Of a DNA stretch of 64,000 nt, positions 21,788 through 24,370 are shown piece after piece. The DNA comes from Clostridia bacterium (lineage in GTDB: Bacteria; Bacillota; Clostridia; Christensenellales; CAG-1252). A program made the position numbers and the translations under genes. The stretch spans positions 1 through 64,000 of the forward strand of contig JAFPXC010000033.1 in the NCBI GenBank assembly GCA_017394805.1, read 5' to 3'. The notes beneath the pieces are model-generated. The model was not told where the DNA came from, made no database searches, and saw only the letters and a list, made by a program, of their open reading frames with translations. Numbering within the stretch: the stretch's first letter is position 1; each line of letters starts with the position of its first letter.

Positions 21788-21884
21788 GTGCAAAGTAGAC
21801 GCCGCGCGTTTGAGTGTTGCAAGATGGGATGTTGCTTGCAAACGAAATGGTACGCCCTGCGGTGCGGCGTCGCGTCCGTTGCAC
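21788..21884 (+). promoter_or_regulatory. tetrahydrofolate (THF) riboswitch
   Basis: The leader of folT matches the class I THF riboswitch by memory of its consensus. P1 is GTGCAA (21788-21793) with TTGCAC (21879-21884). Conserved blocks AGTAGACG, CGCGTT-GAGTG, GATGGGATGT, AACGAAA, GCGGTG-CGGCGTC and GCGTCCG occur in the right order. Downstream, CCTTCC (21894-21899) can pair with GGAGGG (21907-21912), the folT Shine-Dalgarno, with a 7-nt loop, so translation control is the likely output: bound folate would favour sequestration. Confidence 0.9.
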
Positions 21885-22971: not shown

Positions 22972-23075
22972 GCGGAAGACGGGCGCCCCGGGGGCCGAAG
23001 CTTTGCGAGGCGCGAACCCTTGGGTTCGATTACCGTCAAGGCTTCAAAAAAGCACGCTTCTTGCGTGCCTTTTTT
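22972..23075 (-). repeat. left copy: tRNA-Gly 3'-end fragment plus 86-bp repeat with hairpin
   Basis: The 12-bp tRNA-Gly(CCC) end GCGGAAGACGGG (22972-22983, plus-strand reading) is followed by an 86-bp block (22990-23075) nearly identical to 24283-24370. The block contains GAACCC-TTGGGTTC, a GAAGC/GCTTC pair, and GCACGC-TTCTT-GCGTGC with A and T runs (a terminator). Just outside, the 12-mer CCTAAAAGATAC occurs twice (23087-23098, 23117-23128). No gene is seen in 23076-23159. Confidence 0.8.
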
Positions 23076-23159
23076 GTCTAAGAGCGCCTAAAAGATACAT
23101 TTCCAAGCTAAAACCACCTAAAAGATACGCGCCTACTGCCTCTACAATCCGGAATTATT

Positions 23160-23903
23160 CTATAGCTTTACAGCTTTTATAATAAGAAAATCCGGCTTAT
23201 GATAAAGATCATAGTATTCAGGATACTTCCTTAAAATCTCCTCTGTCGGATAAGGTTCTTCCATCTTAAGTATCATAAAGCCGTTGTCAGATAGTGTATT
23301 CACAATTGTGGAGAACATCCTGTGATATTTTTGAACACCTTCAACAAACCATTTGGATTCTTTTTTTCCTTCCACACAATAATTAGATATATTTACATGA
23401 AGTTTTTTGCCGTTTTCATTACGCGTCCATCTGTCGCCCGTACCAGAATAGCAGGTAACAAGCGGGTGCTCCTGGGAGAAAATGAAGCTACCGCTCTTTT
23501 TTATTAATCTGGAAACGTTTCTTACTACCCCCTGAAAATCCTCGACATAATGGAAGGCCAACGAACTGATCACCACATCAAAAGTTTCGTTTATTGCATC
23601 AATATCTTCCATAGGCATTTTAAGATAAGTAATATGAGGATCACTATTTTCGCTTTGAGCTACAGACAACATTTTCTCTGAAATATCAACACCGGTAACT
23701 TTGACCGCCCCACGCTTTATATAATCAACGCAGCGCTCGCCTGATCCACAGCCAAGATCAAGAATTATTTTCCCTTCTAGCTTAGGAAGCAACGAGATCA
23801 GTGTCGGTATTTCAAACAGGTTGTTTGCATTATTTTCACGCTCCCGAAGTTTTCTGTATTCGCTAAAAAAAATCTCATTATCATAAATATTCTGCTTTGC
23901 CAT
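23160..23903 (-). CDS. class I SAM-dependent methyltransferase, probably horizontally acquired
   Basis: A 247-residue Rossmann-fold methyltransferase: motif I ILDLGCGSGERCVDYIKRG, acidic loop VTGVDISEKML, then FDVVISSLAFHYVEDF and the post-motif SRLIKKSGSFIFSQEHP. These are general methyltransferase features; the acceptor is unknown. It is clearly more AT-rich than the genes around it (codons such as ATA, TTA and AAA are frequent), while neighbours are GC-rich. It is flanked by direct repeats, a hairpin array and tRNA-Gly fragments. GGAAGG lies upstream of the ATG, which is chosen over a longer frame at 23983 that would overlap the promoter. Confidence 0.9.
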   Translation of the reverse strand: MAKQNIYDNEIFFSEYRKLRERENNANNLFEIPTLISLLPKLEGKIILDLGCGSGERCVDYIKRGAVKVTGVDISEKMLSVAQSENSDPHITYLKMPMEDIDAINETFDVVISSLAFHYVEDFQGVVRNVSRLIKKSGSFIFSQEHPLVTCYSGTGDRWTRNENGKKLHVNISNYCVEGKKESKWFVEGVQKYHRMFSTIVNTLSDNGFMILKMEEPYPTEEILRKYPEYYDLYHKPDFLIIKAVKL

Positions 23904-23954
23904 AACAGTAACATCCTTCCCAAATCCCGATTTGTTGAGTTCTTTTCACGGTTC

Positions 23955-23983
23955 ATTATAACATAAAAATGTGAAATTATCAA
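23955..23983 (-). promoter_or_regulatory. methyltransferase promoter
   Basis: Minus-strand TTGATA (23983-23978), 17 bp, TATAAT (23960-23955). The -35 directly touches the edge of the hairpin array. Confidence 0.8.
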
Positions 23984-24155
23984 GTGATATTGCGCCTGCG
24001 GCGCAGTGATATTGTCCCTTCGGGACAGTTATATTTCTCGCTGACGCGAGAAGTTATATTATATTCGCCTCCAAACTGCGCGAAGCCCAATATCACTCGC
24101 GAAGCGAATATAACTGGGCGAAGCCCAATATCACTCGCCACAGGCGAATATAACT
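23984..24155. repeat. modular hairpin array with 8-bp spacer words
   Basis: Eight short words alternate with small hairpins. The left half reads GTGATATT, hairpin GCGCC/GGCGC, GTGATATT, hairpin GTCCC/GGGAC, GTTATATT, hairpin TCTCGC/GCGAGA, GTTATATT. The right half carries the same words inverted: AATATCAC, hairpin TCGC/GCGA, ATATAAC, hairpin GGGC/GCCC, AATATCAC, hairpin TCGCC/GGCGA, ATATAAC. Words are conserved while hairpin stems differ, and the whole is an imperfect large palindrome. It does not encode a protein. Confidence 0.85.
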
Positions 24156-24194
24156 GAAAGAAACCCGATTTGGTAGACAAATCGGGTTTCTTTC
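24156..24194. terminator. perfect 16-bp stem-loop at the end of the hairpin array
   Basis: GAAAGAAACCCGATTT pairs perfectly with AAATCGGGTTTCTTTC around a 7-nt loop. It looks like a factor-independent terminator for either strand, though the T-run is broken. Confidence 0.65.
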
Positions 24195-24197
24195 ATG

Positions 24198-24282
24198 GAG
24201 CGGAAGACGGGCGCGTGGCGTTAAGCCGACACCACGGTGCGGTGTCGGTAGCCTAAGCGGAGCGCAATCGATTTGCGCCCTG
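24198..24282 (-). repeat. second tRNA-Gly 3'-end fragment followed by two stem-loops
   Basis: GGAGCGGAAGACGGG (24198-24212) repeats the 3' end of the tRNA-Gly at 24371-24385, including the CC of CCA. Then come CCGACACC/GGTGTCGG (24226-24248) and GCGCAA/TTGCGC (24262-24278) stem-loops. No coding potential is seen. Confidence 0.75.
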
Positions 24283-24370
24283 GGGGGCCGAAGCTTTGCG
24301 AGGCGCGAACCCTTGGGTTCGATTACCGTCAAGGCTTCAAAAAAAAGCACGCTTCTTGCGTGCCTTTTTT
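24283..24370 (-). repeat. right copy of the 86-88-bp repeat with terminator hairpin
   Basis: Same block as 22990-23075, with two extra A residues. It sits directly behind the tRNA-Gly 3' end, so in the minus-strand direction its GCACGC/GCGTGC hairpin with a T-run serves as the tRNA terminator. Confidence 0.85.

Follow-up and report, generated by a model that had tools for sequence, protein, structure and literature searches.

What is the hairpin array that lies beside a methyltransferase gene in this DNA, and is it an RNA, a protein-binding site or part of a larger element? The sequence studied, here called the window, is the 64,000-nt stretch at positions 1-64,000 of contig JAFPXC010000033.1 (assembly GCA_017394805.1) from a Clostridia bacterium (CAG-1252). 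The array, at 23983-24156, consists of two inverted half-arrays, that is, four hairpins, a core and three hairpins:

24078-24156, minus strand: R half-array, with four words and four hairpins (the fourth imperfect), end AGTTTGG, Gut-1 score 58.7 bits
24052-24077, no strand: core AGTTATATTATATTCGCCTCCAAACT, the point at which word polarity switches
23983-24060, plus strand: L half-array, with four words and three hairpins, Gut-1 score 42.6 bits

The left words are GTGATATT (twice) and GTTATATT (twice) and the right words are AATATCAC (twice) and AATATAAC (twice). The initial annotation had read these four left words and four inverse right words correctly, as well as the combination of constant words with variable, self-complementary stems; its list of stems was also accurate, omitting the imperfect fourth right-hand hairpin, GCGCGAAGCCC. 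Positions 24059-24070 of the core are complementary at every position to 24142-24153, where the R half starts. Folded as single-stranded DNA, the region 23960-24180 reached -49.6 kcal/mol, as compared to -23.9 ± 3.35 kcal/mol for shuffled sequences (z = -7.7, 0/200). Across the whole genome, the word-spacer-word pattern gave nine forward and eight reverse matches, while a reversed control pattern gave one and none, and all matches except one fell inside three arrays, namely the window array, C31:111-277 and C32:10291-10457. The array is neither unique to its contig nor a low-complexity assembly error; there are three in this genome.

On the minus strand, 24085-24156 of the R half matches the Rfam family Gut-1 (RF01706) over the full model at 58.7 bits, the gathering cut-off of the covariance model being 50, and the L half (42.6 bits) falls below this cut-off. 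A 2010 report listed Gut-1, of unknown function, among the certain RNAs and as non-cis-regulatory, having seen it in human gut DNA alone (PMC2864571); the papers searched contained no further literature on it. It has the same word-hairpin-word layout as the window array (RF01706, PMC2864571). However, it was described as a human-gut noncoding RNA, whereas the window array is a pair of inverted halves terminating a DNA cassette, and the present arrays come from rumen and hindgut Clostridia, where Gut-1 is only one of many word types that share this architecture. That half of the array belongs to a catalogued family had been overlooked in the initial annotation, as had the inverted pair, the fixed 4+3 layout and the core.

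Also overlooked was that the array is one end of a bounded cassette. Its features and those of its target are as follows:

23075-24195, minus strand: whole cassette, ~1121 bp, read from 24195 to 23075, with junctions between CCA and TGAAAG (left) and between ..TAGACA and AAAAAGG (right)
24155-24195, minus strand: cassette-borne terminator hairpin with an 18-bp stem; a near-identical hairpin directly follows CCA at tRNA-Leu, -Met, -Trp and -Tyr
23955-23983, minus strand: cargo promoter, overlapping the end of the L half; a counterpart was seen by inspection in the tRNA-Leu and tRNA-Met copies
23921-23937, minus strand: 5' cargo boundary repeat CAACAAATCGGGATTTG; the same motif lies ahead of a GNAT gene in locus L084
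23160-23903, minus strand: cargo class I SAM methyltransferase, 247 aa (Pfam Methyltransf_11, 6e-22)
23142-23157, minus strand: 3' cargo boundary repeat TAATTCCGGATTGTAG, in inverse orientation to the 5' repeat and directly after the stop codon
23087-23127, minus strand: right-end direct repeats TATCTTTTAGG (23127-23117 and 23097-23087); similar repeats occur at the right ends of L017 and L120
24370-24444, minus strand: target tRNA-Gly(CCC), the tRNA gene upstream of the cassette
24196-24211, minus strand: 16-bp copy of the tRNA-Gly 3' end, abutting the cassette; a 12-bp copy lies at 22975-22986
22990-23074, minus strand: second copy of the native downstream stretch (terminator and inverted T-arm); the first copy is at about 24285-24369

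Read on the minus strand, the order within the cassette is terminator hairpin, R half, core, L half, promoter, methyltransferase and right-end direct repeats. Upstream of it lie tRNA-Gly and then a stretch that ends in the second copy of the tRNA 3' end; the cassette is situated between tRNA 3'-end copies, with its right end at CA. These bounds rest on the duplication of the native terminator and inverted T-arm on both sides, along with the tRNA 3'-end copies, and junctions of the same kind were present at L017, L119 and L120. The array does adjoin the methyltransferase promoter, as first proposed (TTGATA-17-TATAAT, 11/12, minus strand 23983-23955), and the -35 box overlaps the last L word. 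The 5' boundary repeat sits 34 nt before the methyltransferase start codon, and the GNAT cargo of L084 is bounded by the same inverted-repeat pair. A circle or excision junction, if formed, would join ..CACA to GAAAAAAGC. A search of the genus for an empty site at the window locus yielded none, with a single fragmentary ortholog of the flanking gene.

The duplicated inverted T-arm stretch beside the window cassette does not fit simple insertion. An inverted copy of the local tRNA T-arm was observed between tRNA and cassette in the window (24212-24369 and 22990-23074) and at L017, L026, L031, L046 and L060, followed by a structured region and then by the tRNA 3' tail in direct orientation; at every site the copies match the tRNA found there. 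An empty tRNA-Gln site in genome G011 has the inverted T-arm, without the tail copy.

The two further arrays in the same genome lie behind tRNA-Leu and tRNA-Met and are 97.4% identical over 348 nt. Both are at contig ends, inside a repeat, as often happens with repeats, and in both a gene for the protein IVP, described below, has begun and is cut off by the contig end. The layout was repeated in composites from relatives and from named MAGs, and most of the sequences come from MAGs; the same core was present in 20 named MAG contigs, many of them from the gut of goats, cattle, sheep and yaks, so that it is not confined to the human gut. A same-strand tRNA preceded 23 of 40 distinct composites, with 11 isotypes represented. 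The tRNA end was 110-136 nt from the core in 16 of these, which indicates that the cassette starts at CCA, and the other seven, including the window (303 nt), had an intervening stretch or cassette. The greater distance in the window is due to the second copy of the tRNA tail. Composites without such a tRNA (17/40) were in some cases behind protein genes with a terminator-like hairpin and in some cases at contig ends; composite L013 has a tRNA at the L side instead.

Loci with and without a cassette, and with different cargo, were also compared. A tRNA-Gln gene beside a ZIP transporter gene was empty in one species (genome G011) and filled in others, namely in G008 (with GNAT) and in G016 (with NUDIX). 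Cassettes L112 (tRNA-Trp) and L113 (tRNA-Tyr) had 646 nt in common, from CCA through IVP, and then continued with different genes. Tandem cassettes occurred in L120 and L125, where the right end, ..GCTCTTTCACA, abuts the next terminator. Genes at the L half include IVP, methyltransferase, GNAT, NUDIX and GDPD; L119 is a cassette without a gene. Arrays of four hairpins that contain the R half only are dispersed and gene-less, with up to tens of copies per genome. The connection of arrays to tRNA ends and accessory genes that had been raised at the outset is borne out. From these comparisons, tRNA 3' ends appear to be the sites of the cassette family, and we infer movement from the comparative states. 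The right-end motif was rejected as a family-wide tag: it was present in only 4 of 81 genomes, so right ends vary.

The recurrent gene at the L side encodes the 23S rRNA intervening-sequence protein (PF05635/TIGR02436; IVP), a four-helix bundle with a solved relative, 2rld, of five chains. The window cassette carries the methyltransferase and not PF05635, which is present in other cassettes with this class of words, for instance L112. Among 81 relatives, both Gut-1 and PF05635 were found in 21, a single one of the two in 6 and 3, and neither in 51. The corresponding counts for 297 genomes of the order were 47 with both, 17 with Gut-1 and no IVP, 24 with IVP and no Gut-1, and 209 with neither (odds ratio (OR) 24, p 9e-23, uncorrected for phylogenetic non-independence). 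IVP genes often followed a tRNA at a distance of ~270 nt and had this double array in versions made of other words, such as AATGATGT (tRNA-Pro), ATGAAGCG (tRNA-Gln) and GTGATGC (tRNA-Ala). Two IVP word classes are the MADS/GTTATATT lineage and the KGHYSLVNQ/GTGAAATC lineage.

That the words track this four-helix-bundle protein was a further point missed initially. For 41 IVP loci at which words occurred in both orientations, 62-68% of IVP pairs shared words at protein identities of at least 60%, and 0-3% did so below that level. The Mantel r was 0.44 for pairs of less than 75% identity, with 0 of 2000 permutations above 0.13. The word copies change together in each array and the stems vary freely; a common reader is thus the simplest account. 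Co-inheritance of a linked unit, rather than binding, could also produce a word-IVP correlation. Strong inverted repeats within the upstream stretch were detected at 60 of 109 IVP genes, mostly of the order, as compared to 84 of 610 control ORFs, and between the upstream and downstream flanks at 33/109 and 23/610, respectively. In a second sample of 35 IVP genes, mainly from the same phylum and including five plasmid or 'phage' records, the flank score was at least 15 in 12, as compared to 0 of 25 controls.

Our best explanation, which we consider probable on comparative grounds, is that a small mobile gene cassette inserts directly after tRNA genes and that the array serves as its recognition end. 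An IVP oligomer would read the repeated words, and the hairpins would extrude as single-stranded DNA, with stable loops opposite the words, and so present the words. The array, once read by IVP, would mark the cassette end for movement. The window cassette, which has the methyltransferase in place of IVP, could be served in trans by the IVP of the sister copies at tRNA-Leu and tRNA-Met. As far as sequence comparison reaches, the family has a fixed architecture, occurs at many tRNAs, shows insertion polymorphism at one of them, carries variable cargo, is associated with IVP and has words that change with the IVP sequence. On that basis, the catalogued repeat Gut-1 was misread: it forms one delimited end of cassettes that, as a family, are linked to tRNA 3' ends and to IVP. 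The array has the appearance of a DNA terminus belonging to a so far undescribed type of mobile element. Points that weigh against this explanation are the 17 composites with no same-strand tRNA ahead of them, a window cassette that carries no IVP, the genomes with just one of IVP and Gut-1, and the duplicated T-arm stretch.

The loops bear on the choice between DNA and RNA. Among 272 distinct hairpins with Gut-1-type words, the word strand had TNC in 77 of 141 triloops and TNNC in 73 of 108 tetraloops, with a closing 5' C in 222 of 249, so that the opposite strand of the same loops reads C-GNA-G and C-GNNA-G. Both are unusually stable DNA loops. The pattern recurred with other words (14/24 and 8/18). 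These loop types on the strand opposite the words favour folded single-stranded DNA over RNA; the loops suit that state better, without proving it. If instead the array were transcribed and its hairpins and unpaired words acted as a structured noncoding RNA, for example by binding IVP in trans, one would understand why Gut-1 was catalogued as a certain RNA (Weinberg 2010, PMC2864571) and why IVP relatives are tied to RNA, both in 23S rRNA intervening sequences (PMC4990558) and as Avd of retroelements (PMC10053308). We regard this as unlikely. UNCG loops were absent, GNNA loops showed no purine bias (GNRA in 34 of 73, GNYA in 39) and about half of the loops were triloops; in contrast, the tRNA terminators of these loci, which function as RNA, had GNRA in 9 of 10 GNNA tetraloops and few triloops. 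The array also has a strong hairpin terminator on one side and, on the other, a promoter directed away from it, and reverse transcriptase does not co-occur with it. Stem compensation fits any folded strand and not RNA in particular: RNAalifold on 15 composites gave a closing stem, formed by the R start with the core, with nine pairs changed on both sides, which is weak evidence because MAFFT misaligned hairpins of unequal length. DNA nearest-neighbour energies did not clearly separate the two strands.

Two other readings keep the array as DNA. The overlap of the promoter -35 box with the last L word, and the change of words with the neighbouring IVP, would also be expected of an operator, at which IVP or another protein binds the words and regulates the adjacent promoter while another agent moves the cassette. 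This would leave the R half, the core, the hairpins, the dispersed R-only arrays and gene-less cassettes such as L119 unaccounted for, and we consider it somewhat less likely even than the RNA. The arrays might, on the other hand, be passive palindromic repeats that have no dedicated reader and have spread near tRNAs through recombination or slipped replication. Insertion and recombination are common at tRNA 3' ends, and some arrays have no neighbouring IVP. Passive repeats would, however, hardly produce words that vary jointly in each array and in parallel with IVP, a fixed 4+3 layout with a core, precise CCA junctions across families and strict loop types, and this is the least probable of the readings. 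A cassette end read by IVP remains our preferred account. Of the three possibilities offered by the initial annotation, the loop types and the insertion behaviour favour a folded single strand and a protein-binding array, and disfavour an RNA scaffold.

Such cassettes can be compared with several known systems. The 23S rRNA intervening sequences have the PF05635/TIGR02436 protein in common with the cassette family and are likewise small, sporadic elements at a structured-RNA gene (PMC4990558); a role in mobility was proposed for their ORF in 1993 (cited in PMC4990558). They lie inside 23S rRNA, whereas the cassettes lie behind tRNA genes (tRNA-Gly in the window) and, unlike the intervening sequences, have hairpin arrays, their own terminator and promoter, and exchangeable cargo. 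Integron cassettes with attC are similar in being small and single-gene, in some cases tandem, with variable cargo and a candidate folded single-strand site. In contrast to integrons, the present cassettes target the tRNA 3' end and have several hairpins per site and constant words; no integrase was noticed beside arrays when nearby ORFs were clustered. REP/BIME elements with RAYT also have palindromic units, inverted pairs and dispersed copies, but they carry Y1 transposase, which was absent from 22 of 27 Gut-1 positive relatives. The early judgments that the array is unlike REP/BIME, with which it shares no Y1 co-occurrence, and unlike CRISPR, given spacers that are short self-complementary hairpins, both stand. 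Avd of diversity-generating retroelements (DGR) is a four-helix bundle homologous to IVP (PMC10053308).

Several candidate drivers were rejected. Y1/RAYT transposase gave an OR of 0.59 (p 0.42) over 81 genomes, and reverse transcriptase, the mark of a DGR or retron and considered for a DGR-like role of IVP, an OR of 1.0 that was not significant over the same number; this genome has neither. The 252 clustered ORFs neighbouring arrays contained no common transposase or integrase family. No cutting enzyme was found among the gene families near arrays or in the searches for Y1 and reverse transcriptase. Viral carriage was not supported, with 0 viral contigs having the core pattern.

A wider reading, which we put forward tentatively and at somewhat less than even weight, is that IVP lineages define widespread minimal mobile elements, each recognising its own short word, with the tRNA-end cassettes as one branch. 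The words would be arranged as inverted arrays around a gene or as hairpin-spaced double arrays, and the tRNA-end branch would use folded single-stranded DNA with a strand-transfer step that is host-supplied or unrecognised. If true, this would explain Gut-1 and the 23S intervening sequences, along with many short tandem repeats next to IVP genes. On our preferred account, a long-standing orphan 'RNA', Gut-1, becomes a testable DNA element, and IVP, a protein of unknown function, gains a candidate partner sequence and role. The words may represent a natural code of protein-specific sequences, open to binding assays, and the cassettes offer gut Clostridia a candidate path for acquiring single accessory genes downstream of tRNAs. 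IVP genes were noticed earlier in cas loci and in a screen for CRISPR association, without an array explanation (PMC3936711, PMC10910872). In the open-access literature searched, we found no papers that tie IVP proteins to such arrays or to tRNA insertion.

Other observations were made along the way. IVP genes of Monoglobus, Treponema, Bernardetia, Nostoc and many members of the phylum (L254, L255, L256, L257 and L258-L287) had short word repeats upstream, often with the inverted word downstream; the words include ATTCGTA (Nostoc), TTAGTGA (Bernardetia), CTAGTAA, CAGGAGT and GTTGGAAA. In G016, two cassettes (L099 and L104) pair one and the same type of array with related genes for GDPD phosphodiesterases behind it, which suggests cassette duplication. 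Genome G003 (L041, L042, L043 and L056) has a dispersed, gene-less unit of ~160 bp, with four to five hairpins and words ATGAAATC, which is embedded in other repeats and occurred in 18 copies in the stretches examined. Very long arrays, with up to 16 words per cluster and in some cases without a nearby tRNA, were seen in G028 (L044 and L045). A human faecal 'phage' record marked unverified, MT835815.1 (3136-6459; L253), has tRNA-Arg, terminator, composite and an IVP 78% identical to a rumen form, and it may be a bacterial contig. Elsewhere in the window, a THF riboswitch (21789-21883, 71.9 bits) precedes a membrane-protein gene that probably encodes a folate transporter.
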